Shown here piece by piece: positions 658 through 63,877 of a stretch of 64,000 nt of DNA; the stretch's first letter is position 1, and each line of letters opens with the position of its first letter. The DNA lies in NCBI GenBank assembly GCA_017506865.1, contig JAFCMP010000043.1, positions 62,001 through 126,000 on the forward strand, read 5' to 3'. This DNA comes from Tribonema minus (Eukaryota > Sar > Xanthophyceae > Tribonematales > Tribonemataceae). Under the pieces are notes generated by a model. The model did not search any database and had not been told where the DNA came from. It saw only the letters and a list, made by a program, of their open reading frames with translations. Position numbers and translations under genes: made by a program.

Positions 658-3600
658 GAGAGCAATCGGTTCTTGAGCTGCCGCGTCAGGCGCGACGATG
701 CGATTGCGGCGTGGAGCGGAATACGGCCGCTGGTGCGGGACCCGACAAAGATGGGGGAGGGGACAAAGGCGCTGTCCAGAAGCCATGTCGTTGAGGTAAG
801 TGCTTGCAGTACCGTGCTGAGCAGTGCTGCGAGCTCAAGGTGTTGTCTGAAGTTGTAGATGCAAGAGCAGATGCGGGATCCGTCAGAGATGGGGGAGGGG
901 ACGAAGGCGCTGTCTAGGAGCCATGTCGTTAAAGGTAAGTGCTTGCAGTAGCGCGTCGAGCAGTGCTGCGAGTCGAGTGTGTTTGATTTGCAAGCACGTG
1001 GTGGCACGAAAGCTGTGGGGGTGACTCACCCTGGCCAAGTGGCATTTGTGGCATTTGATGCGCGCATGCGGCAACGAGAGGACAAAGTCGTTGAGGTAAG
1101 CGCTTGCAGTAGCGTGATGAGCAGTGCTGCGAGCCGAGTGCGTTCGTCTGGTGAACATGTAGGCGTAGCAGCAAGCACGTGGTGGCACGAAAGCATATGG
1201 GGGAGGCACCCTGGTCAAGTGGCATAAGATGCGCGCATGCGGCAACGAGGGGACGAAAGCGTTGGTCAGGAGGCATGTCGCTGAGGTGCGTTTGCGCACT
1301 GTTATCCCTGCCATCCAGCCGTCAGCCGTCACGACGGTTGTCATGTGAGCAGACTTGGGACAAATGCTTGGGGTACGCTCAGAATAGTATGTAGTAAGCG
1401 ATGTAAACTCTAATCCTAGAGAACAATAAACGACGCTCGACCAGTACGACACGGTGGTATAAGCTCAGCAATCCCGCTGTGTAGATCTTTGTGAGATGGA
1501 TGCCTCGGGAGAAGTGGCTTTAGAGACTGCGCAGTTATGAGCATGCTGTAGGTACTGTCGCGTCACAGAATTGTGATACAAAGTGAAAGGGTGATTCCCT
1601 TGCACCTCCAGTACAGCTGTGCATGAGGCCGATGTGCACATGACGGATTCTTCAGCGCCTTGAAGTTGAAGTTTGGCAGCGCACCTCGTTCACACTTATC
1701 TTACCCTACCCATCTGAGAAGATCACAGTAGATTCAATCATCGTAGCAAGAATGTATGATTTGATGATCAGCTTGTTGCAGCACCTAAGTACAGGCTCAA
1801 TGATGCCTGGCTCATGCATTGCACGGGGCCAGTGGTGATGTTCACAACAGCAGAGGCAAAAGGTGCGGTGCCGAGTCGCCCGACGATCGTCAACAATGCA
1901 GTCATATACATGTTGCTGTGGTGTAGCACCAGTACACATCGCCAGTGTCGCACTGCTGTCTATGGGCTGAAAGGCCCATGTGCAACCTCGTGAGGTCATC
2001 GTTGAGTTTAAATTGTGACATGCGATGGCGCAGAGGCATGTACATGCAGCGGTACTCGCAGTGTGCTCAATCCACTTGGTGGCTGATCACTCCCACGGAT
2101 AGCATTGCGCTGGGGCCTCAGTACACGGGGCCACACAGCGCCATGTGCAGCGCCTCGTGCGGTTTGCCCAATGGTGCAGAGGCACGTACGCATACAGCTG
2201 GATACCGATGTCTATCTCACCTGGTGTCAGCGCACGACTGAGGATAACAGTGCGGCGAGGCTTCAACACGTGTGGACCGTGCACCCTGCATGCGATGTCT
2301 TGTGGTATTTGCCACATGGTTGTGCGTATAACCCTAACCCTACCCTGAGTCTAGTCCTAACCCCAAGTAAGCGGTGCTGCAGCGCCTGCGGCTTCTGGTC
2401 ACTGGAAATGAATAAAAAAAATCGTAGAGCTCATGTTACAAGTGTCATGGCTAGCTACTATTTAACCGTAACGCTACCGAATTCTACCTTAAATCCTAAG
2501 CGCGGTCGTACACGACTGCCCTGTATCAGGGTGAGTGCAGTAGGCCACAAGTATTGTTAGTCTGGGGTTATCAGTACATCAAAGGGCTACGCAGAAGGCA
2601 CTCATTGTGCTCTGAGCTTTCTGCTGCACCATGCAACTGCACAGTCAACTTCAAAGCTGAAGTTTCTTACTAAACAGGTTCCACCGCCGCCATGTACTTG
2701 TGTCATCAGACTCTGCCCAGCGGCCTCATCACCATCACCGGCGGCAAGTGGACTACGTATAGGCGCATGGCGCAGGACACGGTGGACATGATCCTCAAGG
2801 AGGTGCCAGAGGTTAATGCGCAGGTGAGCAGTGCTCAGCGCATTGTTCACCTCATTATTTGGGTGATTATGGCATCCTGAATCTTGCACGTGATCCTCAA
2901 GGAGGTGCCGGAGGTCAACGCGCAGGTGAGTAGTGCTCGGCGCGTTGTTCACCTCATTATTTGGGTGATTGTGGCATCCTGAATCTTGCACACGCGCAGG
3001 TGAGCAGGGCTCAGCGCCTTGGTCACCTTGTTACTTGGGTGATTGTGGCAACCTGGATCTTGCTGACAGTGGACTGGAATTATGATGCTCAAGGAGGTGC
3101 CGGCGGTCGACGCGCAGGTGATTAGTGCTCTGCGCATCGCTCACCTTGTTATTTGGGTGATTGTGGCATCCTGAATCTGTCAGCAGCAGGAGCGTCACTC
3201 ACCGTCACTTCATTGCATGGCGCTGCGCTTTGCAACGACCATGTTCACAAGCACCGTCTGAAAGCATGCGTCTGTCAGCAGCAGGAGTGTGCCTCACCGT
3301 AACTACATCGCATCTCGCCACGCACGCGCGCCCTCGCACTGCGCGTATGCAGGGGTCTTTTGAAAACGGAGTGCGCCACGAGCTCTTGTCCTTTTGCACC
3401 ATCACCGCTTTGAGAAAGAATGCCTTTGTTAGCAGCAACAGCATCACACACTGTCACACTACATGCCCTCGCGCAGCGCCTCTGCAGGAGTCTGTGAAGA
3501 CGGGGTGCACTACGGTCTTATGTTCACTGCATCACGAAGTCACCCACTTGGGAAAGAACGCATCTGTCAGCAGCAGCAGCGTCACTCACTGTCACCATAA

Positions 3601-6600
3601 CGCAGGGGTATTTGAAGACGGAGTGCACCACGATCTCGTGTCCGTTTGCATCACAAAGTCACCGCCTTAAGTCTGTCAGCAAACAGGGAGCGCCACTAAC
3701 TGTCACACACTACGTGGCATCGCACTTGCGCCTCTGCAGGGGTCTCTGAAGACGGAGTGCACCGCCATTTACATTACCAGATTACCGACGTGAGAAAGAA
3801 TGCGCCTGTCAGCAGCAGGACTGTCACTCACTACGCCGCATTGCGCTTGTGCCTACGCAGGGGTCCCTGAAGACTGAGTGCACCGCGGTCTTATGTCCAT
3901 TTACATCACAAAGTCCTTGCCTCAATAAACAGCTCGCCCGTCAGCAGCAGGAGTGTCACTCCCTGTCGCTCATGTTCTTCTGAATTTTTTATCTGCATCA
4001 CAATGGCGCTTGCGCAGGGGTCATTGAAGACGGAGTGCACCACGAGTGAGGCAGCGCTCATCGGCGCGGACCGCGCGGGCATCGTGTGCGCGCAGCAGTT
4101 TGACCGCATCGTCACCACGCTGCGCAGCGAGTACGGCCTGTCTAGCGATGTGGCGCGACACCTCGTCGACAACTACGGCACACGTGCACTGCAGGTACGG
4201 CGTATGTGCGTGTGTGTGAACATACCGCAGGTATGGTAATCGGCGCAATATCGTGTGCCACCTCGTCGACAATTATGGCACGCGCGCGCTGCAGGTACGT
4301 GTGTGGGTATGGTACCTGGTGCAATACCTCGTCGACAACTACGGCACGCGCACGCTGGAGGTATGTACGGCGTGTGTGTGTACATACTTGTAGGTATGGT
4401 ATCTGGTGCAATACCTCGTCGACGACTACGGCACGCGCGCGCTGCAGGTAGGTACGACGTGTTATGTGTACATACCGTAGGTATGGTACCTGGTGTGCAA
4501 TGCGGCGCGGCAGTGCGGCGACGCACAGAAGCTACAACACGCGCGCGCTGCAGTTGAAATGTGTGTGTATACCGTTGGTATGGTATTCGCCGCAATGCAG
4601 CGCGGCGGTGCGGCGAACGCTTGACAGTAGCTGCGCGTCGGAAGTGTGCGCGTGTCGCGTCTACGATGTATTGCTCCTTTCTGCAGGCGCTGCGTGCATA
4701 TGCCGTCCAATGCGGATGCGGGCACTGTTCGCGGCGCGATGATGCGGTGCGGCACGGCCTAGAGTGAGGGTTAGGGTTTCTCGCACATGACTCCGATAGG
4801 CATCTGAACACTGTGCTCACAGTTGCATCGTTCTCCACTCCAGGCGCGCATCACAGAGCGCATCCTTAGACACTGTAGCTTGGCTGTTGACCGCCACAAA
4901 AGGCGTCGGCAAGCATGCGCCATCATCCTGATAGCATTGCCTGTCTCTCTGCGCGTGCATGGGGTCATGCAACCTGCTGTCTCTAAGGGTTGGCGTGCCA
5001 TATTGAACACACACCGTGACGCTTGATACCTGCCTACCCTGTATCTGCGCCGTCCTGTCAAGTACGTTACCCATCTCTCAGCGCGTATTTGGGGTCGTTG
5101 ATAGCGCGCTCTGTCATTAACCCATATCGCACCCACAAACCTAACCCCAACCCTGATACCTGTAATCCGCGCCTCATGTCTGCTATGCCCTGGGGATGCA
5201 GGTGGCGGATATATCACTTTGGTAGCATTACCTGTCTCTCTGCGCGTGCATGGGGTCATGCAGCCTGCTGTCTCTTAAGGGTTGGCGTGCCATATTGTAT
5301 CCACACCGTGACGCTTGACACCTGCCTACCCTGTGTCTGCGCCAGTGTGGGCCGTCTTGTCAAGTACCCGTCTCTCTGCGCATACTTGGTGTCATTGATG
5401 GTGTGCCCTCTCAAGATGGGGTCAGTGATGGTGTGCTCTCTCAAGGACCCATGCCGCACCTACGACCCTCATCCTAACCTTAAGACCTGTGATCCGCGCC
5501 TCATGTCTGCGATGCCAGGTGGCGGAGATAGCGGTGAACCGCGGGGGCTTTCTCGACAAGGCAAATCACCCCCTGCGCCTCTCCGCACAGTACCCGTTCC
5601 TGGACGCAGAGGTCGTGTTTGCAGTCGAACAGGTGAGACAACGGTCACAGAAATCCTTTTGGAAGTGCGTATAGCGCATGGTGCACGAACGCGAAACTGT
5701 CGACATTACGCGCTGCAGCCCGGCTCAGTTCGCTCCCGTGGGTGTGTCTTTCAAGAACTGTCCATGCCTGTGGATGTGACAGACCACTGCCTCATTCTGC
5801 GACACAGTGCGCTTTACCGCGCTCAACACTTTCCAGTTGATGTCATTGAAGTGTCATTGTTACTGGTGTACGTTGCAGAGCCGGCGGTGCTTCTGCTTAC
5901 AAGCCCTCCAGTGACGCGAGATGCTGTGCGTGCGTGCACTGTTATCTTTGCGCAGTATGTAACCACGCACGCACCCTTCTGATCATGCGCCCAACGCAAC
6001 CCGACAGGACTACATGCTCAAGGCGGTGGATGTACTGGCTTGATGCACGCTGCATGCATCATTTGATCGATGATTGACGCAAGCTGCTGTCAGAGGCGCA
6101 TGATGCTGTGCGTGCGTGCACTTCCACCTTTGCACATGCATCTTTACAAAGTAACCCCATGCACCCTTCTCATCATGCGCTCAACACCCCCCCAACAGGA
6201 GTACGCGCTCAAAGCGGTGGACGTACACGCATGCCGCACGCTGCATGCTCAACAAAGTGCGCCGCGCCTTCTGATCATACCCCAGCAGGAGTACTGCGCT
6301 CAAAGCGGTGGACGTGCTCGTGCCGGCACACTGCGTGCATCATTTGATCGAGACTAGCTTTATTCATACCCTCCTGTGGCGCAGGCCATCTTTGCACTTC
6401 CGTCTTCGCGCAGTGCCCACGCACCTTTCTGATCACACCCCCCATGCACCCCCCAACGACAGGAGTACGCGCTCAAAGCGGTGAACGTGCTCGCGCGCCG
6501 CACGCTGCATGCATCATTTCATTGATGATAAATGCAAGCTGTCGTCAAGCCCCCCAGAGGCGCATGATGCTGTGCATGCATGCTCTTCAACAAAGCGCGC

Positions 6601-7085
6601 GGTGCCTTCTGATCATGCGCCCGACGCACCCCCCAACAACAGGAGTGCGTGTTCAAAGCGGTGGACGTGCTCGCGCTGACACGCTGCACGCATCATTTGA
6701 TTGCGAAAAACTGTTTTCAAATCCTCCTGTGGCACATGATGCTGTGCGTGCGCGCACTTCCATCTTTGCACTTGCGTCTTCGCGTGCAATCTACCCCCGC
6801 ACCCTTCTGATCAAATGCGCCCTACGCACCAAACAGGAGTACGCGCTCAAAGCGGTGGACGTGCTCGCGCGCCGCACGCGCCTCGCCTTCATCGACGCCG
6901 CCGCGGCGCGCGCCGCCGCGCCGCGCGTCGTCGAGATCATGGCCGCAGCGCTCGGCTGGGGGCGCGCACGCCGCGCAGCAGAGCTCAGCGAGTGCGAAGA
7001 GTTCCTCGCTACCATGTCACCATCAAAGGCAGCGGAGGCGAAGGCGGCGGAGGTGGCGGCGGCGGCGGCGGTGCCGGCGAGTTGA
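658..7085 (+). CDS. GPD2: mitochondrial FAD-dependent glycerol-3-phosphate dehydrogenase, C-terminal part
   Basis: The enzyme oxidises sn-glycerol 3-phosphate to dihydroxyacetone phosphate and passes electrons through FAD to ubiquinone at the inner mitochondrial membrane. Five phase-0 exons join in frame: 658-795, 2710-2823, 4018-4194, 5519-5632 and 6837-7085 (TGA 7083-7085). In order they encode family hallmarks: AAWSGIRPLVRDP and SRSHVVE, then SGLITITGGKWTTYRRMA of the FAD-binding end, then LSSDVARHLVDNYGTRAL, then PFLDAEVVFAVEQ, and finally EYALKAVDVLARRTRLAFID with VVEIMAAALGW. This is the domain order of animal GPD2, plant SDP6 and yeast Gut2. The N-terminal FAD-binding half is upstream of the window. 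The protein ends in an Ala-rich tail and lacks the EF-hands of animal GPD2. Introns 2-4 and the first visible intron carry exon-edge copies. Family assignment is very secure; exon borders are inferred from phase and homology. Confidence 0.93.
889..1295 (+). repeat. donor-side exon-edge echoes, three copies
   Basis: The 3' edge of exon 658-795 plus its donor (about 750-835) recurs at about 889-975, 1071-1140 and 1240-1295. Each copy keeps the end of the HVVE codons or a remnant, and the gtaagt/gtaagc-like donor followed by gcttgcagta. Similarity falls with distance: the first copy is nearly intact, the third has lost the donor consensus. Confidence 0.85.
1300..2709 (+). other. rest of dehydrogenase intron, with CCCTAA hexamers
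   Basis: No exon is recognised on either strand. A short run of telomere-type CCCTAA/CCTAACC lies at about 2331-2375. The acceptor is tcatcag at 2703-2709. Confidence 0.5.
2824..3180 (+). repeat. donor-side echoes of dehydrogenase exon 2710-2823
   Basis: The exon end encoding ILKEVPEVNAQ plus its gtgag donor recurs downstream with a spacer of about 100 bp containing ttcacctcattatttgggtg. Copies end near 2923, 3000 and 3117; the one near 3000 keeps only the acgcgcag|gtgagc border. Several copies still spell most of KEVPEVNAQ in frame. Confidence 0.88.
3200..4017 (+). repeat. acceptor-side echoes of dehydrogenase exon 4018-4194
   Basis: The acceptor plus first exon bases (gcagggg..., then a gaagacggagtgcacc-like stretch) appear before the real exon at about 3351, 3484, 3603, 3736 and 3858, and finally at the functional site 4011-4045. 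Units of about 125 bp also share a gtcagcagcaggagtgtcac spacer. This single intron therefore carries donor echoes at its left end and acceptor echoes at its right end. Confidence 0.88.
4195..4640 (+). repeat. donor-side echoes of dehydrogenase exon 4018-4194
   Basis: The exon end encoding HLVDNYGTRALQ plus its gtacg/gtatg donor is repeated at about 4258-4297, 4325-4365, 4411-4452 and 4517-4560, with a more ruined copy near 4600-4640. Spacers are about 50-60 bp of the type gtgtgtacataccgtaggta. The nearest copies are almost exact; the farthest barely align. Confidence 0.92.
4920..5518 (+). repeat. acceptor-side echo and long tandem duplication
   Basis: About 150 bp around 4930-5090 (tagcattgcctgtctctctg onward) is repeated at 5223-5395. 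A copy of the acceptor context and exon start (tcatgtctgc...aggtggcgga) lies at 5175-5215, before the real acceptor at 5500-5530. CCCTAA-like hexamers lie at about 5135-5160. Confidence 0.8.
5990..6836 (+). repeat. acceptor-side echoes of the last dehydrogenase exon
   Basis: The sequence acag|gagtacgcgctcaaagcg plus the following GTGGACGTGCTC and its leader recurs with 5' borders at about 6008, 6199, 6288, 6461 and 6641, before the functional copy at 6837. Copies near the true exon are almost exact for about 45 coding bases. The farthest reads actacatgctcaaggcggtg. Confidence 0.92.
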
Positions 7086-8268: not shown

Positions 8269-10774
8269 ATGATGCTGGCAAAGTTGGCGTTGCTCGCGCT
8301 GCTGATCGTCGCTGGCCAAGCAGCGACGGTGCCTCAGGTACGCATTTGCTCACTGCTCTGCCCGCGCTTTCGCCTGAACTTGGTGCAGGATGGCACACGA
8401 TTTCCCGTTGAACATTATGTGCGCCGAGTATTTATTTCAGCGTGCTACATGCACATGCCACGAGATCAAGCTTGCAACTTGCATGACGGACGCAGCTGAA
8501 CATGGCGCTTTGCAAAGGCGTCATTGGCCATCGCCGCCTCGAGCACAAGCTGCCGGATATGTGGCTCCTGTACAAGGGGGGCTAGACCCCCTTCAAGTTG
8601 GTGCACACAGGGTGTGGCGTGTGTCCGATGCCTCCATTAAAGTTCGTGTCGGCATTGCTGGCGGCGACAACTGCTTCGATGGCACGATCACTGGCTTGGA
8701 CGCAGACATTGATTCCGATGCGATAGTCCCGACGTGCAGCGGTGAACTTGCAAGGGTGCTCCTGAGAGGCCCCCCATTTCATGCTCCACCATGCTGAACT
8801 GCAAATTTTGTTGTGTTTACAACATTGACACCAGCTGCTTCCCAACTCGCACACCCCCCCTCTCACTGACGTCATATCATCTGACATAGCGCTACACGCA
8901 GGTCTGCGAGCGCTGCTGCTGCACTTTTTGTTGAGGCTGTCACAGCGGACACCATGCCGCGATTCATTTTACAGTGCTACAGATACGGTTCTCTCCGCTT
9001 GGCCAACACCGCGGTGGCAACGTCACAGCGCGACAGTAGCTGGCGCCTTGCACTGCAGCGGTCAAGAGACTTGCAAGCCAGTTGACATCAGGTTTACCGC
9101 ATCACCCTCACCGTGTACTTAATGTGTACTCTTGTGTACTCTGTGTGTACTCCTGTGCTGAGCAGCGCCAGCTCGGCCCCAGCGCCACCAAGACCGAGAG
9201 GCCGACCGTCGTCGAGACGGAGAAGCCTCAGAAGACCGAGAAGCCGACCGTCATCAAGACGGAGAAGCCGCAGAAGACCGAGAAGCCCACCATTATCAAG
9301 ACAGAAAAGCCGCAGAAAACCGAGAAGCCCACCGTGGTGAAGACCGAGAAGCCACAGAAGACAGAGAAGCCCACCGTCATCAAGACAGAGAAGCCCACCG
9401 TGGTCAAGACGGAGAAGCCCCACAAGACGGAGAAGCCCACTAGCATCGAGACCAAGAAGCCCAGCGCGCCGCTGGTCGACGCGTGCACGCCCGCCGGCGG
9501 CGTGTGCAGGAACGACTGCGCCACCGACGCGGGCTGCAGCGCCGTGTGCGTTGCGCTCGGGCGCACCTACTTCAACAACCCCTCGCAGTGCGACGACATT
9601 GGCGGCAGCGGCATGCCCGAGAAGTGGTGCCGCAGCCTGGGCTTCGCCGACTGCTGCACGTGAGTGCGAAGTGTCGTCGTGAACGCCTTTGTGGACTCAC
9701 TGTGAACGTGTTCTGGACTCGCCATGAACTGTCGGTTTGTGAACGTTTTGTGGACTTACTGTGATACGCGCAACGGGCGCGCGGCGGCTTTCACGCTTAT
9801 GCCTTGGAGTTTGCGGCTCAATGAATGTGACTGCAGTGGGCTGGGGTGTATTCAGAAAGCGGCGATGATGCTCAGCACTGGTGCCCCATGACCGTTGCGG
9901 ATCGATCGGAGACGATGAAGCACGCGGCATGCTGAACAGTCATTTGCGCTAGAGCAGCGAACGCCCGCTTGAGTGCGTGCTCGAAAGGTCAGGGTGAGGG
10001 TGACCCTAAACACCACTTGTTGTTTGCACGCATGCCTGCAGCTACTTGCGCCGTGCGCTCCGCCACGCGTTCATCCACACTGCGTCCTGCCGCCCCCTGC
10101 GTCAGCCCCGTTTTCTCCAACCCTCGCCCTTCCCGTGTGATGCGACTTGCAGTGGTTATGGTCCCACTTGATGTGCGCACACTCTAAAACATTCAATGCG
10201 TGCCAGGCTGCAGCTGCAAGCGCGGGACGGTACAGCCCGCCCCTAACCCTAACCCGGTTCCGCATGATCAGTGCTCAAAGTCTAGCCAGATTCAAACCTG
10301 ACGCATGCACACTCTGAGACGCTCAATGTGATGCGCGCCCCGGTGCTCTCCACCACTGCAGCAAGCGCGCACACGGCACAGCCTTTCGTCGATCAACCCT
10401 AACCCCGCCTCGCATCATCAGTCCTTGAAGTTGCATCAGTTCAAACCTGATGCATGCACACGTTGAGATGCTCATCGCGATGCGCGCCCCGCCCCTGCCG
10501 CTTGCCGCCGCAGCTGCAAGCGCGCGACGACACAGCCTTCAGTTGCCCGACCCTCACCCTAAACCCGTCTCGCATGATCAATCATTGAACTTGTTCCAGT
10601 TCAAACAGTTCGGACACATGAGGCAAACACATTATGAGACGCTCAACGCAACGCACGCCCCACCCTCGTCCCCCCCGCCGCAGCTGCAAGCTGAAGACGG
10701 CGCAGCCCACCGCCACCCCCACTGCGCAGCCTACCGCGGAGCCTACTGCAGAGCCGACCATGCAGCCCGTCTAA
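8269..10774 (+). CDS. secreted Cys-rich protein with KTEKP repeats
   Basis: Three exons, 8269-8337, 9166-9659 and 10684-10774, join with consistent phases (0, then 2) into 217 residues. Exon 1 encodes a classic signal peptide (MMLAKLALLALLIVAGQA, cleavage probably near residue 18-20). Exon 2 holds about seven imperfect KTEKPT/QKTEKP repeats, residues ~30-127, a basic/acidic Thr-Pro stalk. It is followed by a compact module with ten cysteines from DACTPAGGVC to FADCCTCK. Exon 3 completes the CCTCK end and adds a QPTAEPT-rich tail before TAA. This build suggests a wall, matrix or surface protein with a likely glycosylated stalk. I do not recognise the Cys module. An in-frame TGA at 9661 would end the protein if the second intron is retained. 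Extra exons in the 828-bp first intron cannot be excluded. Confidence 0.75.
9190..9465 (+). repeat. coding repeat array (KTEKP)
   Basis: Imperfect 15-45 bp coding units (gtcatcaagacggagaagcc type) encode the KTEKP stalk of the secreted protein. Third-position changes between units indicate purifying selection on the peptide, or conversion. Confidence 0.85.
9660..10683 (+). repeat. intron with a 40-bp repeat and CCCTAA-linked acceptor echoes
   Basis: Just after the donor, gtgaacg...ttgtggactcactgt recurs about three times (9678-9770). Before the acceptor, the context ccgcagctgcaag plus the exon-start remnant (acg-cacagcc) recurs at about 10205, 10362 and 10510, then at the functional site 10680. 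Each non-functional copy is followed directly by a CCCTAACCC-type stretch. The unit is about 150 bp. Confidence 0.85.
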
Positions 10775-22600: not shown

Positions 22601-25600
22601 AGCTGCAATGCCCAGCAAAAGACGTACATGGCGAGTGCATCAGACACATTGAGGTCATAGGCACACAAGTGCACTATGGGTGCACTTGAGTACACAACCA
22701 CTGCGCCGCATTACTCACCCTGTTGCCCTCGGCGTTGAAGGCCATGGCGTGGAACTGTGAGCTCTCCGGTGACGTCGCGCAGAACAGCTGCGCCGGTGGA
22801 AGGCATGTGGGGGCGCAGCGGGGGAAGAGAGTTCATGATTTTCAGCACGAGGGTGAGCACATGGCGCTGAATCGCCGCACTGGTTGCGCGTAATAGCCGG
22901 AGTTGACGCTGTGCTGATGCTAGCGGATGATGTTAATAATTAAAAAGTGCCGGCGACGTCGCGCATAACAACTGCGCCGGCGGAAGGCACGCATTACCAG
23001 GTCACAGCGGGGGGGGATAGGGGGAGGGAGAGGGATTGAGTGAATCTAGTGCAGGAGGCGGACATCAAGCACATCGCGATGAAGCGCCGCACCAGCAAAA
23101 CGCATTCGCCAGAGTTGAGCTTTTGATGCTCATAATGAGGATAGGCTCTACAGCAGCGGGGGAAGAGAGGTCGATTTGTTTCAGGGTAAAGGTGAGCACC
23201 GTGCGGTGAAGCGCCGCGCTGGTTGCACGCAATAGCCGGAGTTGACGCTGTGCTGATGCTAGTAGGTAATGAGGGTGGGGGCGGGGGGGGGGTCGCTGCT
23301 GTGACAGCCGAGAAGGGGGGGGTGGACCAAGCTCCAGGCTAGAATCAGCGTAGGGGCGATGCTCAGCTAAGTGCGCAATGATCACAGGCGCACGCGTATG
23401 CCGCCACGTGCCGCACAGCACGCCGTACACGCCACCGAAACTGCAATGTCAAATGCGGGCCCTTGCTGTCAGGCCTGCCATTCATTTGCATTAAATTGCA
23501 ATGTGACTGCGAAGCGATGAGGGCACCTGCGGTGCACGTTATTTATTTCTAAGTTAGGGTCAGTGGCGTGCTGCTTGATGAGTGACCAGCGCTGCTCCAA
23601 AGGGACCCACCTTGCATGAAGCACCATTGATGCAGCTGCCTGAGAAGCGATAGAAGTACTATTCACAAAGCATGTCGACAGGACTGCCACCGGGCATCGC
23701 ATGTACTCAAGTGCAACGTGCAGCAGCCGCGGCAGCAGCAGCAGTAGCAGCAGCGCACACAAAGACACCGCCCTCACCTCCATCTCCTCCACGTCGTACA
23801 GCTTCACGGTCCTGTCGCCGACGGCCGCCGCGAGCAAGAATTCCTGCGGATTGAAGCGCAGCGCGCGCACGCCGCTGCCGCCGCCGCTGCCGCCGCCGCA
23901 CGCCGCAAATGCGTGCAGCAGCTTCCCTGCGCGCACGTCCCAGATGCGCACGTCGCCGTCGCGCGCGCCGCTGGCCAGTAGGAAGCCGTCGGGGCTGAAC
24001 TGCACCTCGCATACCTACGGTACAGCGGCGGAACATATTAGTATTATGCAGACGGTTAAAGTGTGGAAGCGCGGCGCAGCTGAGTGATGTGCACGCGAGT
24101 CACTGGCCAATAGGAAGCCGTCGGGCTGAACTGCACCTCGCATACCTACGGTACAGGGGCGGAACATATGCATTGAAAGCTATAGCTGTTGTTTACGCAC
24201 GCGATTCCATTTCGCGATCATGTGCCTGCGACAAAAGTGTGGAAAGGGCGGCGCAGCTGAGTGATGCGCGCGCGCACGCCGCAGCACAGCAGGAAACCAT
24301 CGGGGCTGAACTGCACCTCGCATACCTGCGGTACCGGGGGTGAAACACATGCCTATGGTGAGGGGTTGAGGGGAGGGTTGAGATGAGTGATGCGTGCGCG
24401 CCGCGGGCTGTTGGCTGAACTGCACCTCACATATACCTACGGTAGGTGGGTGGAACGCATGCCCATGACAAGGGGATGAGAGAGCGGCGCACTCAGCAAC
24501 ATGCGCGTTCTGCTGGCCAGCAAGTCGGCGGGGCTGAATGGTGCCTTGCATACCTACGGTAAGGGATAGGGTTAGAATTAGGTAACCCTAACCTTAATCC
24601 TAACCTAACCCTAAGGGGATGACCAACAAAAGCTGCCTGGGCTGAAGTGCACCTCGTAAAGCTCCGGCGGCTGCGCCATGCAGCGCTGCCTCGCTCACAT
24701 CTACACTTCATCACATACAATCAGTGACTCACATTTACACTTCGCCATTCAATCAGTGACACCAGGGGGACAACATGCGCTCAAGCACGTGCCAGCAACG
24801 ACCCGAAGCCCAGGCGTCAAGTCATGGTGGGCATGCCCCTTTCGAACAGGCTGCTTGCTGCCTTCGCCGCACAAAGCGTCGCTCATGCATGGGGTGAGCG
24901 CTCCACAGTCTCGTTGAGCGCTGCCCTGCTGCTGCCACCTGAGCGCTGCCTCGGTCGGTTGCACCCAAGCGCTGCCATGACTGCCTTACGTGCCGCACAC
25001 AAAGCGCTGCTTCACGGTCGCGCCAACTGCTGCACCTTGCTTTATCGCGCTGCCCTGCTCACAACTGAGCCCTGCTACTGCATTCACTTCCGCCTGAGCG
25101 CTGCCTCGCTCTCTGCACCTGAGCGCTGCCTCGCTTCTTTCACCTGAGCGCTGCCTCCCTCCACCTGAGCACTGCCTTGCTGCTGAGCGCTGCCGTGCTT
25201 CTCTCACATGAGCGCTGCCGCACTCCCACCTGAGCGCTGCACCCATCTCTGAGCACAACTGCACTGCTGCGGACCACCTCACCCAACGCCGCACGCCGAC
25301 TGCGAACGGACCTTGCCTGCCAAATGAGCACTGCCTTCAAGCGTCATCTCCCAGCAGCAGCACGCACACAGCCTGAGCGCTGCTGCCGCTGCACGCTGCC
25401 TTGCCGCCGATTGAGCGCTGCCATCAAGCGCAATCTCTCAGCAGCAGCACACACACAAAGCCTGAGCGCTGCTGCCGCCCCCACTTCCCTCACCTCGGCG
25501 CCGTGCCCCTTGAACGTCACGACGCACTCCCGCGTCGCCATGCTCCAGACCTTGACGACCAAGCATCATCCCCCAGCAGCAGCACACGCAATCACACTGA

Positions 25601-40590: not shown

Positions 40591-43500
40591 ATGAGGGTTT
40601 TCCGCGCAGGCGCTGCTCTTGCATCTGCGGTGGTGCAACAAAGCGCCGCATTCTCTGGCCTGGCTTCGCTGAGCATGTCGGCATCCGGCACTGCAGCTGC
40701 AGTGGATGTGACAACCTTCAGAACGTGGACGCAAACGAGCCCTCAGGCAGCGGCCGAGAGTTTCCAGCCAGCGGAATTTCAATGCGCTCGGTGGGCTTTT
40801 AACCCTCATGTGCATACAATTTTCGGGAGTGGGGAGGTGGCGAAGCGCGTGTTCAGAAAGGATGGCCCGGCGGTCGACTACAGGTGCGCGTCAACCTGTT
40901 GTCCAATCTACAAGCAACGAGTCACCAAGAGCGTGCAGTGCTTGCGTCAAGCGCGGCATAACAGCATCGATGGTTAAGGCTGTGCAGCTCGAGTTAGAGC
41001 ACAAATAGGGTTGAACGCGTTTTGATGCGCCGACCGCGCATCGCGCATCGTCGTGTACTACGGCACTGCTGGCCCCATTTTTTGCTGCTGCAGCATCATC
41101 AGGTGATGCCTCCTCATTTCCGCTTTCTTGGTGCATCGGTGCAAGAAGTTGCCAGCGCATGGTGATGTAGGTGCTGGAAAGTTGCATGCAAGTTTGATCA
41201 CAACGAAGTGTGCATTCAGTCAACAAGTGCGTCCAAGCTTGCGCTGACATCACTGCCTCATACGGCGCACATGCCTGTCCTCACGTGCTTTCGTGTCCTT
41301 GATGCTGTTCTTTCCACCCACCCTGGCACCTTGTGCTGCCGGCTGCTGTCTCCAGGAGAGAACGGTGAGTGCGTGAACTTCTTGATTGCGCAAAAAAGTC
41401 ATGTCACAAGTTGTCAACACACGGCACATGTACCGAGATCTGCTAGCAACCTTGACCTCAACCATTTGGGCGCCCTGATTGAGAACTCATGTAAAGTATC
41501 CAAACGTATCTGCTCTCTGCGCAATATAGCTGCCAGCTCGTGACATAATGCAGCTTGACGCCTCTTGCGGAAACTGTTGTCTGCAAAAACCATGTTGCTA
41601 TGCAGGTGATCACTGCGCCTGCGAGGGATGGCTCAGAATGCGTACAAGCACAGCATGAAGGCCGTCTTGATGTCACGGCGCTCTTCAACTCCCCAGTTTG
41701 GTGTTGCACGCACCTTGCAGAGTAGGTGCGGGGCATTCTGGCAGTTTGGCTGGACTGCTGTCACTTGATCATTTGCACAGCGTTGCCACCCTGTGCGGAG
41801 GCGGCAGCGCCGACATGGTGGGTGTGTACTGTGGTAGCATTGCTCAGAGACTCTAGGGGCAGCGAGCTCTGGCGCAACCTGCGCTTGTGGACATCTCCGC
41901 TACGATCAGTTATAGTACGCCCTGGTGTCGAGAGCACGTCGTTCCAAACACGATGAGTGGCGCGACATGGGGTATAGGATAGGGTTAGGGTTAACCCTAA
42001 CCCTAACCCTAAGGAACGGCGTAAACGCTTGCTGCCAGTGTGCTTTCACTAATACATGACAATGCATTTGAGAAAGCGGAGGCGGCGGCGCTGGTGGCGG
42101 CTCGTACCAATCACCACAACTTGTCTGCGACATGTGACTCTCCGTCACGAATGGCTCTCTTCCAAGACAGGGGGGCATCCAACGCCATCATTGTCCCCCC
42201 AAACGCACGTGTGCGCAGGCTAGACACGCCGGACGGAGACTTCATCGACGTCGACTTCTACGACGGGGGGGCGAACAGCGACGGGGGGGAGGGGGCGGCA
42301 GCGGCGGGGGGCGGGAAAATTGCAGTGCTAACGCACGGTCTGGAGAGCACGAGCACCGCGCCCCTCACGGCGCGCATGGCGCTGGCATTCGCGGCCAAGG
42401 GCTACAGGGTCGCGGTGCTGTGCTTCCGCAGCTGCAGCGGCGAGGACAACCGCACGCTCGGCGCGTACCACATGGGGTTCACCGACGACCTCGGGTTCCT
42501 CGTGGAGACGGTGAGAGAGCGCTGACGCGAGCTGAGCGCTGATGCGGGATGCGCAAAGAGTGTGACTTTATTCTGAAGCGTACGCTCGGCGCGTACCACA
42601 TGGGGTTCACCAACGACCTGGGGTTCCTCGTGGAGACGGTGAGAGGTTGAGCGCTGGTGCAGGATGCGCAAAGTGCAACCCCATATAGAGAAAATGTGCG
42701 CTCAGCGCGTACCACGTGGTGTTCACAGAGATCTGGGGGCTGCTCGTGGAGACGTTGAGAGCGCAGGCTGAGCGCTGATGCAGACGGTGCAGACGGAGCA
42801 CTGATGCAGAATCCTGAGCGCTGATGCAGGACGCGCAAGTGCGTCTCTAGTTTAACTTACTGTTTGAAGGGGTACGCTAGGTGCATACAGTACCACGTGG
42901 GGTTCACATACGACCTGGGGCTCCTAGTGACGACGGTAAGAGCGCTGGCTGAGCACTGACGCAGGATGCGCAAATGAGACTCTGTACGAAGGGGTACGCT
43001 GCGGCGCATACCACACGTGGGTTTTCACCGATGACATCTGATTCCTCGTGGTTGGAGAGAGAGCGCTGACTCCAGGGCGAGCACTGCTGCAGGTGGCACA
43101 CATATTCGTTCGTTGCGCCTTGCCTTCATTCACACATACACTCAGGCTGGCACCGTGCCTGAGTCGGACTTCCACGCCAGTAGGGATGCCATCGCATTGG
43201 GTGCATGCCACGCACTCTGAAGTACACACATATACACACACATACTCACTGATCCACAAGTGGTGGTCATTGTGAAGACGGCACGCATTCAGACAACGGG
43301 CGGCGTCCACAAGCTGCCATACATGTAGACTATATCTATAAATTGCCATACCGGCATGAAAGTGTCACATCGCGTGAGGTTTCGTTGCTGGTCTGAGGGT
43401 CCTTACGAGAAGGGCGAGCGCTGGCATAGGATGCCTACATCTGGCATCGTTTGCTCCGTGAAGGGGGGAGCATCACTTTCTGAGGGGTTAAAGGATGGCC

Positions 43501-46500
43501 CGATGTTGAGAGGATCCCAAGCGCCATACCTAACCCTAGCCCTAACCCTGCGGTGAGCGTGCAAGTCAGTAGTCTAGCGCGCCCACTATTGCTGAGCACT
43601 GCCGTGATCGCGGTGCGCCATTGCGGGCCATGCGGTGCTTACAGATGGTTGGCTGCGTGCAGGTGCCAATGCGGCGACGTTCAGGCGTTGCGCCGTACGG
43701 GGGGGATGCGCAGTCTAGACCTTAGGGCCGAGCGATGATGAGCAGAGGCGGCATCAATGAGTCACACTTGTCATTGAATCAGACTTGTCATTGTTGAGTC
43801 AGGTTCATCACCAATGTCTCAGACTCATCATCAATAACTCAGACTCAATTTCAGACTCATCATCGATGAGGCATGATCCCGGACTCACCACCGCCCGAGC
43901 TTACGCTGCAGTCTCCGCTCTCACTACTGCTCTCACTTTCCGCAGCTGCGCAAGCGCCACCCTTACGACCTCATCTTCCTCAGCGGGTTCAGTCATCTTG
44001 TTTAAATCATGAGAATGAGTCAGACTCAACATTGATCAGTCATGACCCCTACTTCGCCACCGCTCAAGTTCACGATGCACGTGCCACTTTTGCTACTGCT
44101 CTCTCTCTCCGCAGCTGCGCAAGCGCCACCCATCCGACCCCATCTTTCTCAGTGGTTTCAGCCTGGGAGGCAACGTCATCAGCAAGTACCTGGGGGAGAT
44201 AGGCAGCAGGGCTCAGGAGCTGGGGATAATCGGGGCGAGCGTATCTTGCGTGCCTTTCGACGCAGTGGGCTGCCAAGAGCAGGTGCGACCATGTCAAAAC
44301 TTCAAGTACCACCAGTTGCTCTCGGATACCTTTTCCTTGCTAAATACGCAACATGTTGACACTGGCGACCTGCAATTGAGCCTTGCCCACTCAACGCGAT
44401 GGCGTGAACGCATGAATACGCAACGTATTTTCATTGGCGACCTGCAATTGAGCCATGCTCACTCAGCGCGATGGCATGAATGCATGCGAAACCCGCATCG
44501 CAAGCTTGTGGTTCTGCACACTGTGGGTGTCGTGCTTCCATACTCGTGTGTCATTGCTCCAGGGGCGAGGGCGGCTTCAGAGATACTCCTCGCTGAATGC
44601 GCAATGTATGCATATCATGCGGGTGATGGCACGAATGCACTTGAAGTCTGCGCCACAATTTCGCGAGCCACGTGATTGTCGGGTTTCGGTGTTCCTGTCA
44701 CGACTCCTCAACTAGCATTTTGTTTCTGTCTACTTCCTCCAGAAATGTGCAATGCATTCATCTTGTCGACCTTGGCGCCCCTGCCACTTCCTTTTCTGCT
44801 ACCCCGCCACTTAGGGTTAGGGTTAGGGCTAGGTTACCCTAACCCTAACCCTCACTCAGCGCTCAGCAGCATTGCGTGTCAGTGCTCACAGCCAGGCACA
44901 AACCCCGCCTCCAGGGGCCTTTTTCAACATGCTGCTGGCCCGTTGTGCCGTGGGCACTGGCGCTGCAGTCGGCGCGCTGAGCACTGATGATACCCATACA
45001 TACCCATACCTATAGCAGCACTGAGAGGACGGCACTTTCAGTCGCCTGTGCCTCACAAACAACACCTGTGGACCTGTTGTCTGGTCTGCGTACACTTGTG
45101 CACTGCAGATTTGGCTCGGGCTTCATTAGGCGCGTCTACAGCGGCAACTCCCTCGTGCTGAGCACTGATGATACCCATAAATACTCACACGAATACCTAC
45201 CTACCCCCTTGCGCTGCAGATCGACTCTGGCTTCAACAGGCTCGTGTACAGCGGCAACTTCCTGGCGCTGAGCACTGATGATATCCATACATCTCCTATA
45301 CACACACCTATGCGCTGCAGATGGACTCGTGCTTCAACATGCGTGTCTACGACAACCTTAAATACATGATGAGCACTGATGTTACCCATACATGCCAACA
45401 CCTATACCTACGCAGATCGACTCGGGCTTCAACAGGCGCGTGTACAGCGGCAACTTCCTGGTGCTGAGCGCTGATGTTAACCATTGAAATACATACCCTA
45501 TACCTACGCAGATCGACTCAGGCTTCAACAGGCGCGTGTACAGCGGCAACTTCCTCAAGTCCCTCAAGCCCAAGATCGCGCGCAAGTTTGCCGACCCGGC
45601 GCTTGCGGAGCAGGTGAGTGACCTTCTTTACTTCAGTGACCTTACTTCTTCCCAGAATGCGCAAACAACGCAGTCTGCGTAGAAGTGCCGGGGCTCGTTC
45701 CTCGACGTGTACGTGGTGACATTGTGTCGCGCAAAGTCAATGACCGTGCGCTGGCAGACCAGGTCCATGTCTGCAGACTTGTACATTCGTCATGACACTG
45801 TGGCGCGCGAATTCGCTGACGATACTTCAAGAAGCAGCGACTGCGCAATTCAACAACGCGCCCCCTTGTGCAACTGTCCTGGGTAGCCACAACACCATGC
45901 GCAGGTTCATCAATTCGCAGTACATTCGCCACGGCAACTCTGCTGAAGCACGCAGAACGAGATTGCATCGCGCTCTTGCCGATGTTTTGCTCGCTGTTGT
46001 GTTGCCCGTGTGCTCCTCATGGCACTCAACTGTCTGCCGCGACCTGTTTCTGCTGATGCAGGCGAAGAAGGTTCTCGATCTGGAGGCCACGCGCATTGAG
46101 ATTGCATTGTGCACTAGGGGTTAGTATTACGGTTAGGGTTTTGGTTCCTGTGCTCGTGCATGTCACGTTACGTTGTGCTGCGTTGCCTGTGTGGCTTAAT
46201 GACCATCAAACTGCCTGCCGTGGCCCATTTCTCCTGACGCAGGCGAAGAAGGTTCTCGATCTGGAGGCCATCTTAGCGTGCTCCTCCATCGGGGAGTTTG
46301 ATGACCTCTACATTGCCAAGGTGACATGCCATGTGCTAACGTGATCTCATTAGCGCTGCAAGCACTGGTTTACGCTTGAAGGTCACCCCGAAAAAAGTCA
46401 ACATGTGCCATCGCTTGCGATCATTCTAAGGCATGGTGTCAAGGCCTGCGAACAGAGAGCTGTCATACAGTCTCAGGAACAGACTCAGAAATTTGTGCCC

Positions 46501-50886: not shown

Positions 50887-50919
<33 letters not shown>

Positions 50920-53900
50920 TGGAGTGGAACCCCAAGTTCGCGCAGCTGCTGCAGCCCGCGGACCTCAACGTCGGCGCGTGGCTGCGCGAGCTCACGGCGG
51001 TCGTCACCGCGGTGTGCGCGCTGCAGACGGTGGCGTTCCTGACGGGCGACGACGCGATCGCGGCGGCGCTCGCGCGCCTCGCGGACGGCGTCACGTCGTC
51101 CTACGAGGCGTCCCTCGCGCGCCTGCTCGCGGCGGCGACGGACGCGTCCGAGGACGCCGCGCGCGCGCCCGCCTCCCCGCAGCCGCACATGGTGGCGCTC
51201 TTTCTCGCGAGCAACGTGCGGCGCGGACTCGCGCGGCAGCTCGCCGCCAAGCGCGCCGAGCTCGCCGCGCTGCACGACGGCGTCGCCGCGGCGCTGTCCA
51301 CGCCGCAGGCGCGGCTCGCCGTCGCGCGCGCCGAGCGCGCGCGCGCCGCGTGGGAGGCGCCGCTGCTCGCGGAGGCGTTCGGCGACAACGACGCTTTCGC
51401 GCAGCGCGTGCTCGCCGCGCGCCTGCAGCTCGTGTGCGGCGACGGCGGCGGCGGCGGCGGCGGCGGCGGCTGGCCTCACGGCGAGACGCTCGTGGCGGAG
51501 CAGCAGATGGACATGCAGCTCGCGCGCGGGGTGGCGGAGTGGGAGCAGCGGCTGGAGGCGGTGCGCGCGGACGCGGCGGCGGCGTTCGACGCACTGCTCG
51601 CGCCGGACGTGTACCCGCAGACGCCCGCGCTCGCGGCGGCGCTGCACGCGTGGCGCGGCGACTTCGAGGCGGCGTGGGCGGACAGCGAGCAGAAGAAGAT
51701 GCTCAAGGTGGGTGGCGGTGTCGTTGTTGGTCGGGTTTTGCTGCGTCGTGTGTCTGCGGGAGTGGTGGGACGATAGGCGCTACGGGGTGGCGACGGCGCG
51801 CTCTGCACACACATCTGTGGAGCACTGCTCCGTTTAGCGCTGTAAGCAGCCCATTGTACAGTACAGCACACTTACTGACCCCTTCAGCGCTGTAAGCAGC
51901 CCATCGTACAGTACAGTCCACTTACAGTTCAGTCCACTTACAGTACAGTATAGTTAGAGTAAGGTTACAGTACAGTACATACAGTACAGTGCAGGCGTGG
52001 ACTCGACTGCCGGCCACAGCGCTTGCGGCGATGCGCTCTCAAGATTTTGCAGGTTTCTTTGCCAGTCAGCTGAGGCGTTCATGTACCTGTTTTGAGAAGC
52101 GCAGGCAGTGATTGCTCGCTACGTCCAGAACACAGACTTGTAGATCTGCCGAATCCATTTGCAGCCTCTTGAATCGTGAACGGCGCCGCAAGATGATGTC
52201 TTCTACAACTTCTTGCTGTTGAAGTGCCGTCGGTGCGCTCATCTGATTGATGTTAAAGTTCAGCGTACGCTGTATACAGCCATCGCTCTCATGACGGCCA
52301 AAGTCGTGCCAGGTCGCATTGGTTCTAAGTGTTTGCCAGTCAATAGGGCAGTGCATTTCTGCTGGCCTGTGGCACAGCAGCGTGTATGCGACCGTGTATG
52401 CAATGGTGTGTTGAAGTTGCAGGGTAACTGCGAATACCAAAAAATCACTTCTGCGTAGGCGGCAGTTCTGTGCCATCACATGCAATCGGTTTGCGCGCCA
52501 CATGCAGTGGCCAAGCCTTCATGGCGTCCATGCCTGGCGTTTGCAGGGGGTACAACACTTTAGGGGTTAGAAATACGGTTAACAGCGGTCATGGCTCTGC
52601 TGCACACCGAGGACATGGGGCAGTCTCTCTACATGCAGGCCGTAAACAGTAGCAAAGTCAGCAGCTGCAGGTGCACATGTACTCGGTTGCCCATCGCACT
52701 GGCTTCTTGAATGTGCCACACTGGCAGTAGTGCAGATCAACTGTCGAAGGCTTTCACTTTACACCCAGCAGCCCCGCACATTTCAAAGACTGGCCTTGCC
52801 GTCAGAATGACCGCGCGCACACCCACTCATCCACACAAGTGAGTAACCGAGTGACTCTACTCTACTCCACCCGAAACCGCGCGCACCGCAGGGCCACGCG
52901 AGTCAGAACGCGGTCACCAGCCACTCGGAGCGGTTTGCGCGTGTGAAACTCGCTCTCAAGGCTGTCAGCGACGAGCGTGCCAAGATCGCCAAGGTCACCA
53001 AGCGGCGTCAGATCACTGCCGGCGGCGGCAGCAGCGGCGGCGGCAGCAGCGGCGGCGGCGATGGCGATGGCGATGCTGCGGCTGCGGCGGAGGAGGCGCG
53101 TCAGGAGATGGAGCTGACGGAGCGCGAGCAGAAGCTCAATCAGGTGCGCTTTGGTGCGGCGCTGTGGTTATACTGGTGATGGTGTATCGTACAGCAAGTA
53201 GACAATCAGTTACGCTTTACTTCAGTAAAACCATTAGGCGCGCTTTGGTGCGGCATTGTGGTCTTGATGGTGGTGGTGCAATGTACTTCAAGGTGATGCA
53301 GACACCACAAGAGGGCGGGGTCTACAGTAACCTGGTGTATTTCAGGAAGACGATCAGGTGCGCTTTGCTTCAAGAAGACCATCAGGTGCGCTTTGGCGCG
53401 GCGTTGTGTGTGTGTTGGTGGTGTAATGTAGTTGAAGAAGACAAGCAGGTGCGCTTTGCTTCAAGAAGACCATCAGGTGCGCTATGGCGCGGCGCATTGT
53501 AGTTGTGCTGATTGTGGTGTAAATGTACTAGAAGAAGACAGTCAGCTGCGCTTTGGCGCAGCGTTGTGGTTATGCTGGTGGTTGTGTAACGTACTTCAAG
53601 AGGACAATTCGGCTGAGGCATCAAAGGGTGTTGTGGGAGTAAGAGGGAGTATGGTCAGGTTTTGCTGAGCACTGATGGCAAAGGATGACACCGCCAGTGG
53701 GTGGGATCCAAGCTAAGTTGACAGTCACCAATGCCGCTCATGAGCATTCATCAAGGTGCCAGATCTGCTGTCGCTCGCGCACTCCACTCAACATGTGCCA
53801 CACATTGTCACTCTTGACGCAACTGCTGCATCTTAGGCGCGCGAATCAGCGACATTGGCGACCTCACGAGACCCTCATTGCACTCAGCTCGGCCACGCAC

Positions 53901-59016: not shown

Positions 59017-59047
<31 letters not shown>

Positions 59048-59698: not shown

Positions 59699-59748
<50 letters not shown>

Positions 59749-61150: not shown

Positions 61151-63877
61151 ATGCAGCGGCAACATTGGGCCGGTACAGTACTGCTGGCCGTCGCTGGCGA
61201 CAGCGCGCCGGTACAAGCGCATGTAGAGCTGCAGGCATTGCCGCACGCTCTGTTGGTGCAGGTTCGCAGCGATGATGGGCTGACGAGGAGGACGTTGACA
61301 TACGACGAAGCGCGGCGGATGGTGTTTGACGCTTTCTCAAATGGCAGGGCTGTGGAAAGACACATGAGCGAGGTGATCATGAATCTTGCGACCCACTTAC
61401 AGACAGACGTGGTTTTGTGCGAGCGTTGAGCCGAAAACTGTGTTTTTATCGGTCCTCGTGCTGCTCTGAGCGTTCTCTAGCCTCATAGACCAATGGCTGA
61501 GTCGCTTGAAGCTTCTTGAGGACAGCAGGAGGCAGCTCCAGAGGTCTCAGTTCGAGTTGGTTCATGGTGCTCGAAGTTGAAGACGGCGTTTTCGAGATCC
61601 ATTTTGCAAACTTTTTAAAAAGGTTGCAAGGCGCAGTGGAAGCATGTCTGCTGAGCCTGTCAGAGTTGTACTTGTTCAGCAGGCAGCATGTGCGTGCACC
61701 AACACCACTAATGTGCTTGTGACTCTCAACTGCTGCAGGTCGTCTCGTGGGACGACGTGCAAGAACTAGGCAATGCTGCAAGGTATGAGCCACCGTTGCC
61801 ATCAAATACAGACCAACAATGTGCAGTGCAAAGTGTCTCGCTGGTAAATTTGGCGCTTGGCAGCTGCACATGGTTGGAAAAGGGTCTTTCATCCATCATC
61901 TCAGGTCTCTTGCACAAAGCAGGCCTGCACTGTTCAGCGTCTCACTCCACATTGTGTGCCAGGTCTGAGAGCAGAAAGGCAAGCTGGCTGACGCCTGCCT
62001 GTTGCAATGCTAATTGCTGGGAGCTCAGCAGGGAAATGCGGTGGCGGAAGACGAAATGATTTAAGTACACTGCACAAGAACTTGCAGCGTGCAGCAGCAG
62101 CGGGCCGGTGGCATGCCTGTGCCTTCTAACCATGGTCATACTTGTAACGTGTTCGAACAGCATGAGCGGGCGTACAAACAAGTGTTGCCGCCGTGATGAC
62201 AGCCTCAATTGCGCGTCACCATCGCCCTAACCTTGAGGCCAGCGACACCGCGCAGCAAAACCCATGCACAACTGCGCAGTGCATCGCGTCGCACTCGGCT
62301 GCGAAAGACGTACTGATGCGAAACTACTCGCAAGACCGCCACGCTCACCAGCGGGACGCATCTGTGTGTCGCTGCTCAGCAATGCAGCCGCAAGCACCGC
62401 GCGGCAACTGCTGCAGGTATGATCACACAGCATGACCATGCCTGACTCTAACCCTAACCCTAACGTAACCCTGTGCCACTGCACGCACGTTCACATACCG
62501 CGAACGTGCCTGACTCTAACCCTAACCCCAACGTGATCCTGTGCGCACAGGTCCTGGGCCACGGCGAGCGGCGGCGCGCCGCCCCCCGCGGCGCTCGAGT
62601 GGCTGGCGTGGCACATTCAGCTGAGCACTGATGCCCAGCACATCACCTTCCCAGGCTCGCCTTCACGCGCCAGCGCTTCATACGCCGCGACGCGCAGACA
62701 GCGCCCCGGCTACCAAGAAGGCTACAACAGTGATGATGACAGCGGTGTCGATGGCGGCGCGCTGATATTCGAGGCGGACGATGCGGAGGTGTGGTGCCTC
62801 GGGCGCCGCGTACGGGTACACTGTACTGTGCATGAACTCTCGCCGACGTACCGGCTCCACATGCGCGTGCGACGCGGCAGCAGCAGCGGCAGCAGCAGCA
62901 CTGACGAGGCAACGCTCATCGTGACGCTCGAAGACCTGCGCCGCGCGCTGTCGGCGTGGGTACGTAGCGACGCTACGGCGGCGGCGGCGGCGGCGGCGCT
63001 CGCGCACACGGGCGGCGGCGCGCGCGGCCGCCGCGCCGACGCGGCGCTGCGGCGCTGGGTCGTGTGCGGCGCGCCGCCGGACCGCGCGCACCTCGTGACG
63101 TGGCTGCTGTGGCGCGTGGCACTGGTGCCCGCCGCCGCTGCCGATCCCGGCAGCAGCAGCGGCAGCAGCAGCTGCGGCAGCGGAGACGACGATGATGGTC
63201 ATGAGCGGCGACCGTACATGCGCGTGAACGGCGGCGGCGGCGGCGCGGCGCACGGCGCGCGGCTCGTGCTGCTGGCGGCGGGAGCGCACGGAGAGGGCGG
63301 CGCTGCCACTGCTGCGGATGCGCCGTCGGAGGCGCTGCCGTCGTATCACAGCAGCGTGCGCGGTGGCGACGCGGCGAGCAGCGCGTGCGGTGGCGACTGG
63401 TACGATGCGCACCCGTACGGTACGTACGGCGCGCGCCACGCTGCGTCTTGCAGCGCTCTGCCTTCATACGACAGCGGCGATGACGCAACGGACGCCGACG
63501 ACGCGGGCCACGATGCTGATGACTATGCGTATGGTGCGCCGCCGCCGCCGCCGCCATACGACGCGGCAGCTTCGGAGAGCAGAGAGGCATGGCTCAGCCA
63601 CAGCGCGCCCGCCGATGGCGACCGTGTGCAGCAGCAGCGCTCGACATCGCGGCGTCTCAGCCAGACCGCGCCCGACCTGAGCAGTGCTGAAGAGGCAGAG
63701 ATGATTGAAGTTGAGGGTGAAGTTGAAGCGGCGCGGGAGCTGGCCGCCACGGCGGCGCTGGCGCGTGCGCGGCGCGGCGGGAACAAGCTGTACGGCTGGA
63801 GCGTGCGGCGCACGGAGGCCAAGGGGGGCGCGTCTGTGAGGGGGTGGACGGAGGACAGGTGGGCCGCATATTGGTGA
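61151..63877 (+). CDS. PY-motif protein of unknown family
   Basis: Three exons, 61151-61372, 61739-61782 and 62551-63877 (TGA), join in phase (0, then 2) into 530 residues. The junctions read ERHMSE|VVSWDDVQELGNAA and then RSWATASGGAPPPAALEWLAWH. The N-terminal ~90 residues look globular (LTYDEARRMVFDAFSNGRAVE). The middle holds VTLEDLRRALSAWVRSD and AHLVTWLLWRVALV. The C-terminal third has LPSY at 351-354 and 392-395 and a PPPPPPY at ~419-425, typical ligands for WW domains of Nedd4-type ubiquitin ligases, then an acidic patch and KLYGWSVRR near the end. It may be a ligase adaptor, which would suit its neighbour, but this is inference. Exons 1-2 are less certain than exon 3. Confidence 0.62.
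62435..62550 (+). repeat. CCCTAA-bearing tandem pair before a splice acceptor
   Basis: The unit tgcctgactctaaccctaac...cgt(a/g)a(c/t)cctgtgc occurs at 62449 and 62509, ending at the functional acceptor gcgcacag (62550). The first copy has the cognate ctgtgccactgcacg remnant. Confidence 0.85.

Follow-up and report, generated by a model that had tools for sequence, protein, structure and literature searches.

Tandem copies of exon edges and their splice sites in introns of the alga Tribonema minus

Many introns of the xanthophyte alga Tribonema minus contain imperfect tandem copies of the exon edge that adjoins them, splice site included. The pattern was first noted in a stretch of 64,000 nucleotides (nt) of contig JAFCMP010000043.1 (positions 62,001 to 126,000), referred to below as the window, where a reading of the letters alone had proposed that such echoes fill most intron-bearing genes (the original prediction). 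The analysis confirms that the pattern is real and that it extends outside the window: in dynein genes sampled elsewhere in the genome, 20 of 39 introns carry it. The copied units share a common anatomy and have decayed in a near-neutral manner. In the dynein sample they lie at exon-intron junctions far more often than uniformly placed duplications would, and the introns that hold them are longer to roughly the extent that the copies add.

The genome searched was the T. minus assembly, 158 megabases (Mb) in 554 contigs. Within the window, 12 introns of four genes were used, with ends fixed by protein homology or by an annotated protein: three in a GlpD-like glycerol-3-phosphate (G3P) dehydrogenase gene, seven in an ABHD hydrolase gene, one in a PARG gene and one (of several) in a katanin p80 gene. 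Because the window had been picked for its repeat pattern, its counts are kept separate from those of the other samples. For the dynein sample, loci were taken from exon-by-exon matches of two dynein domains, repeats being ignored in the selection. The resulting 20 stretches held 52 adjacent exon pairs, from which 49 introns could be placed in frame with GT-AG ends; one duplicate locus and nine introns with a junction score below 4.3, a cut-off fixed after the list had been inspected, were then removed, leaving 39. A small kinesin sample came from five exon pairs in four of eight kinesin loci; two of the pairs could not be placed, leaving three introns. Arrays were called by self-BLAST of each intron with up to 150 nt of flanking exon; in the first intron of dynein locus L060, the array spacing was set at half of 308.

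The 20 dynein introns with copies hold 11 donor and 14 acceptor arrays, and both kinds co-occur in five of the 39. Internal-only duplication was found in a single dynein intron, where it ends 4 nt before the acceptor. When the 45-nt exon edges were scored against their own introns, 13/39 donors and 13/39 acceptors matched at z > 4, compared with 4/38 and 2/39 matches for the exon stretches lying 45–90 nt from the edge; as a control, none of 78 exon edges matched one random intron of another locus at z > 4. When the 19 dynein introns lacking arrays (9,459 base pairs, bp) were searched under relaxed settings, the one clear internal duplication was again found and only two pairs of 26–27 nt were added. 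Two of the three placed kinesin introns have arrays, and one kinesin intron contains a 41-bp internal pair. A permutation test shows that arrays are clustered by gene (p = 0.01). In the window, eight of the 12 introns hold copies, in four donor and seven acceptor arrays, and internal-only repeats occur in six, one of them adjoining an acceptor. Here donor copies lie 3' of the true donor and acceptor copies 5' of the true acceptor, the polarity that had been predicted; the predicted range of one to about nine copies shrinks to 1–5 per array at the threshold used.

The anatomy of the unit is consistent across arrays. In the 25 dynein arrays the unit spacing is 66–215 bp (mean 140), with an exon part of 10–105 nt (mean 57) that makes up at most two thirds of the unit and an intron part of 43–158 nt; measured at the exon-side end in 33 arrays, the exon part is 54 ± 18 nt. 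The mean unit is near a nucleosome in length. Copies are arranged head to tail, are imperfect, and are 76–98% identical to the true edge. In 28 of 29 donor copies the alignment extends as far as the final base of the exon, and in 48 of 49 acceptor copies as far as its first base, which is partly by design as the query was centred on the junction. Homology on the intron side of the splice site exceeded all of 40 shuffles in 59 of these 78 copies, so the unit includes intron sequence. Nine of the 25 unit lengths are multiples of three, and the exon parts fit uniform placement poorly (Kolmogorov–Smirnov p = 0.013).

The copies decay like neutral, non-coding DNA. Compared with each other, they differ by 17.3, 14.1 and 22.1% at codon positions 1, 2 and 3 and by 16.2% in their intron-like parts; compared with the true sequence, the corresponding values are 8.9, 7.5 and 17.4%, and 13.1%. 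Set against one another, the two series are about what would be expected from constraint on the true exon but not on the copies. Of 31 indels in the exon-like parts, 26 shift the frame. A coding role for the copies was considered and is ruled against by these frameshifts and by the neutral divergence.

How strongly the arrays are tied to junctions was gauged by placing the observed unit sizes uniformly, which predicts that 57% of arrays should be internal when each is placed in its own intron, or 61% across all 39. In the dynein sample one array of 26 is internal and 25 lie at junctions (P ~1e-8), and the bias persists if internal arrays are taken to be half as visible (P = 3e-5) or a quarter as visible (P = 0.006). 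One dynein intron, of 1832 bp, contains a repeat element of ~875 bp; with this element removed, 56% internal arrays are expected and the three values become 2e-8, 6e-5 and 0.008. All of these P-values assume independent arrays, although arrays cluster by gene. An excess of junction-spanning duplications far above the uniform expectation is thus supported in the dynein sample, in line with the original statement that the repeats consistently straddle splice sites; in the window, half of the introns have internal-only repeats.

The strongest competing account holds that plain tandem duplication, a simple and known process, strikes uniformly, that selection purges the exonic events, and that copies at junctions survive and are more visible. 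The window's internal-only repeats speak for it. So does the decay described above: at codon positions 1 and 2 the divergence between exon-like parts and the true exon is smaller than that among the copies, so junction arrays stay visible longer. In the dynein sample, however, one array of 26 is internal where uniform duplication predicts 56–57%; half visibility leaves the bias clear, quarter visibility much less so, and power as low as that is unlikely, as the intronic part alone is recognizable in 59/78 copies. We consider this account unlikely, while giving it more weight than the other rivals.

Alternatively, the copies might be functional, with the extra splice sites aiding recruitment of the spliceosome or the stepwise (recursive or nested) removal of long introns. 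Retention of the acceptor AG in 48/49 copies and the joint presence of donor and acceptor arrays in five dynein introns would suit such a role. Against it, the donor GT is retained in 23/29 copies (51-intron set), in line with neutral decay, the exon-like parts decay at an intron-like pace and with frameshifts, and 19 of the 39 dynein introns do without arrays. We judge a function improbable, and the suggestion in the original prediction of a splicing-related structure is in general not borne out, the acceptor AG leaving it a small opening. Ratchet-type recursive splicing, for which exons should start with GT, fits only some of the acceptor arrays as judged by eye and was set aside.

An introner or another mobile family carrying splice sites is very improbable. 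A motif, TGAGC[AG]CTG, does recur in introns of several genes, but the units derive from the adjacent exon, and genome searches returned no sign of a family: with the GlpD-like gene (window 2600–7200) the only matches besides itself were short GGC-type tracts, and with the ABHD gene (42400–46400) they were tracts resembling telomere repeats plus a single match of 65 bases at 77% identity. These searches, which covered two genes with a tool that scores a limited number of candidates and ignores very common words, found no similar element in many unrelated introns. They support units that are apparently private to each junction and the product of a local process, much as had been proposed from the differences between genes. 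The ~875-bp element (L060, ~1963–2837) has dozens of full or partial matches elsewhere at 70–98% identity; beyond it, simple tracts and the one short match, no second copy of L060 or ABHD was found. An assembly artefact is equally far-fetched, for the pattern is present on several contigs and the copies, at 76–98% identity to the true edge, are too diverged to be duplicated reads.

Contigs resembling allelic copies were compared for new duplications. The pair L075/L076 is 94.4–94.5% identical by BLAST and shows six gaps of at least 8 bases, one of which is an end effect and the largest other 72 bp within an open reading frame; no array intron could be placed in this pair. A further pair, C146/C385, is 99.75% identical.

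Arrays are associated with longer introns. The median length of dynein introns is 774 bp with arrays (n = 20) and 485 bp without (n = 19; p = 2e-4), and once the copies are subtracted the medians are 519 and 485 bp (p = 0.89). The copies therefore match most of the extra length of introns with arrays, in agreement with the intron growth suggested originally, though longer introns may also offer arrays more room. A weak link with GC-rich coding sequence is also present: flanking exons have a GC content of 64.7% with arrays and 61.4% without (p = 0.025; by edge, p = 0.09 for donors and 0.04 for acceptors). A looser two-G motif occurs in 14/25 exon edges with arrays versus 17/53 without (Fisher p = 0.052), an excess that may come from GC alone, and canonical G-quadruplexes (G4) occur in 1/25 intron edges with arrays and 3/53 without.

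The best supported reading, to which we give slightly better than an even chance, is local tandem duplication anchored at the junction and kept silent by use of the outermost splice sites; the molecular cause and the choice of splice sites in what follows are proposed from the patterns above. A segment of ~140 bp, comprising an exon end or start of a few tens of nt, the splice site and 43–158 nt of intron, would duplicate in head-to-tail order, in some cases more than once. The duplication would preferentially have at least one end in GC-rich exonic DNA, duplications with both ends in exons would be purged, and later copies could arise by slippage or unequal exchange inside the array. The outermost donor and acceptor would stay in use, exon definition probably favouring them since the copies comprise just an edge of the exon, and the copies would leave with the intron. 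Silent because the outermost sites are used, they would be harmless, decay neutrally and lengthen the intron. In the ABHD gene, joining the exons at the outermost sites reproduces the annotated protein, which we count in favour of this silent duplication.

Several points weigh against junction-anchored duplication as set out here. Internal-only repeats are less rare in the window (6/12 introns) than in the dynein sample, and no step shown accounts for the rarity of intron-internal duplications. We infer the use of the outermost sites, and the annotated ABHD model may not rest on RNA. Longer introns may merely give arrays more room. No breakpoint signature emerged: no common motif was seen by eye at the exon-side ends, and canonical G4 are absent from exon edges both with (0/25) and without (0/53) arrays. 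Finally, the acceptor AG in the copies is retained in 48/49 where ~41 would be expected under neutral decay (P = 0.002, copies assumed independent), which differs from the retention of the donor GT (Fisher p = 0.009). This excess is the sole clear sign of constraint and is left unexplained.

The features of the window are collected in Table 1. The original prediction had counted at least six of eight intron-bearing genes as carrying echoes; the pattern is firm in four of them, and the KTEKP-repeat gene and the gene at 49.9–57.3 kb are weaker, lesser cases with junctions placed by eye.

Table 1. Exon-edge copies and related duplications in the window (window positions)
Feature	Position	Strand	Copies and remarks
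GlpD-like intron 1	2824..4017	+	donor copies 2885-2955, 3082-3146
GlpD-like intron 1, acceptor copies	3341-3382, 3476-3514, 3601-3633, 3717-3763, 3856-3887	+	
GlpD-like intron 2	4195..5518	+	donor copies 4259-4299, 4317-4386, 4401-4450
GlpD-like intron 3	5633..6836	+	acceptor copies 5979-6050, 6191-6241, 6286-6329, 6429-6505, 6609-6676
KTEKP-repeat gene intron	9660..10683	+	junctions by eye; single above-threshold acceptor copy 10505-10537
Katanin p80 (KATNB1-like) intron	24015..25931	-	donor copies 25466-25553, 25601-25685, 25732-25805; internal repeats too
Katanin p80 intron, acceptor copies	24094-24169, 24271-24334, 24413-24444, 24503-24561, 24630-24667	-	
Ankyrin gene tandem duplication	32308..32536	+	copies begin at 32308 and 32427; spans stop codon at 32413
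PARG intron	37776..38599	+	one acceptor copy 38424-38508; one 38-bp internal pair
ABHD intron 3	42511..44114	+	donor copies 42579-42656, 42699-42771, 42890-42947, 42996-43070; acceptor copy 43924-43992
ABHD intron 4	44283..45511	+	acceptor copies 45105-45154, 45216-45263, 45298-45350, 45401-45459; 72-bp internal tandem pair
ABHD intron 5	45614..46242	+	one acceptor copy 46034-46089
Gene at 49.9-57.3 kb, donor-side repeats	53144..53608	+	donor by eye; three above-threshold copies with 5 nt of exon each

The gene models behind these placements rest on the following matches. The joined GlpD-like protein aligns to G3P dehydrogenase structures over a stretch that includes the positions of its three introns, and the alignment has a gap close to the first join; in intron 2, an extra duplication adjoins the acceptor (intron positions 734–995 and 1025–1322 of 1324). 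The katanin p80 join is free of gaps at the junction when aligned to a Phaeothamnion protein, and an annotated T. minus katanin was absent among the four matches above 1e-60. A PARG domain is found in the exon downstream of the PARG intron. For ABHD, the 312 residues encoded by the joined exons are 100% identical along the entire query to 'Alpha/beta hydrolase protein [Tribonema minus]', and when eight exons are joined at the outermost sites the product is the annotated T. minus protein P0001 (384 residues), which was itself used to place the first exons; the match requires a microexon of 9 nt at 41356–41364. Longer repeats in the KTEKP-repeat gene lie at 10198–10707 in the self-comparison of the window, and repeats at 729–1264 and 62419–62550 were not assigned to any gene. 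The duplication in the ankyrin gene, in whose protein ankyrin domains were identified, spans the stop codon, so echoing can also affect a border of coding sequence where there is no splice site.

Some further sequence features were noted in the introns. The 9-mers TGAGCACTG and TGAGCGCTG each occur 11 times in the introns of the 51-intron set against expectations of ~0.7 and 0.8; in the exon stretches the first is absent and the second occurs once. Telomere-like CCCTAA/TTAGGG tracts lie within window introns, for example near 42000, 44820 and 62450; CTAACCCTAA occurs six times in five of the 51 introns against an expectation of 0.01, and the tract in the ABHD gene matches many other contigs. 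Rfam gave no matches at gathering score within the window.

Intron growth is mostly credited to transposons and drift. In the genome sample examined here, the extra length of some introns corresponds to local duplication anchored at splice junctions, and this occurs in a lineage very distant from the birds, where a like phenomenon was first named. It is tentatively possible, though we would sooner doubt it, that duplication which requires one end in an exon, and hence appears at splice junctions alone, is a leading source of intron lengthening in Tribonema, arose separately in birds and represents a general, overlooked route. The pattern also raises the question of how as many as five near-perfect decoy sites escape the spliceosome, and an alga with a small genome offers a tractable system in which to ask what breaks at exon edges and why intron interiors are spared.

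Several known systems bear comparison. In a potato gene, one junction-spanning duplication created a new intron and an inserted exon (PMC4974935); this case likewise involves tandem duplication of an intron end, its 3' splice site and an exon start, but it is a single event, whereas Tribonema shows many events within existing introns, and the gene models used contain no additional exon. In intron gain by AGGT exon duplication, local tandem duplication coupled to splicing makes an intron from exonic sequence alone (PMC3443670), whereas the Tribonema units carry intron sequence (59/78 copies) and existing splice sites. Introners form dispersed, multi-copy families across the introns of a genome (PMC9860276), unlike the apparently junction-private units described here. 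Among the literature matches listed, which left aside subscription papers, there was no report of such copies in Tribonema or another alga, and for the terms exon stuttering and sequence stuttering PMC12954441 alone was found.

That paper (Hron et al. 2026) describes 'exon stuttering' in the chicken, in which copies of an exon's lateral part, with its donor or acceptor, run through the intron, and its anatomy is the same, contrary to the original view that no known phenomenon describes the pattern. It reports 115 genes with 236 such introns, 190 of them on dot chromosomes, with an exon part of 20–187 nt (median 36) and extensive length variation within the species; GC-rich genes of gerbils are mentioned too, with data not shown. 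As in the chicken, the Tribonema copies form imperfect tandem blocks that measure tens to hundreds of bp and stay within a single intron; they start at the exon border, include the adjacent splice site and number several. The exon part is tens of nt in both (mean 57 in Tribonema), and both combine an intact coding sequence with a link to GC-rich coding sequence, weak here. The two differ in distribution: stuttering in the chicken affects a subset of genes, mainly on special chromosomes, whereas in Tribonema 20/39 sampled introns on several contigs have copies and the pattern is apparently frequent in ordinary genes, although this fraction and the 3.4% of dot-chromosome introns with exon copies in the chicken screen are not directly comparable because the screens differ. 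Purely intronic stuttering is widespread beside the exon copies in the chicken, and in Tribonema was found in 1/39 dynein and 6/12 window introns. On these comparisons, Tribonema looks like an apparently independent case of exon stuttering (PMC12954441), more closely anchored to junctions in the sample analysed.

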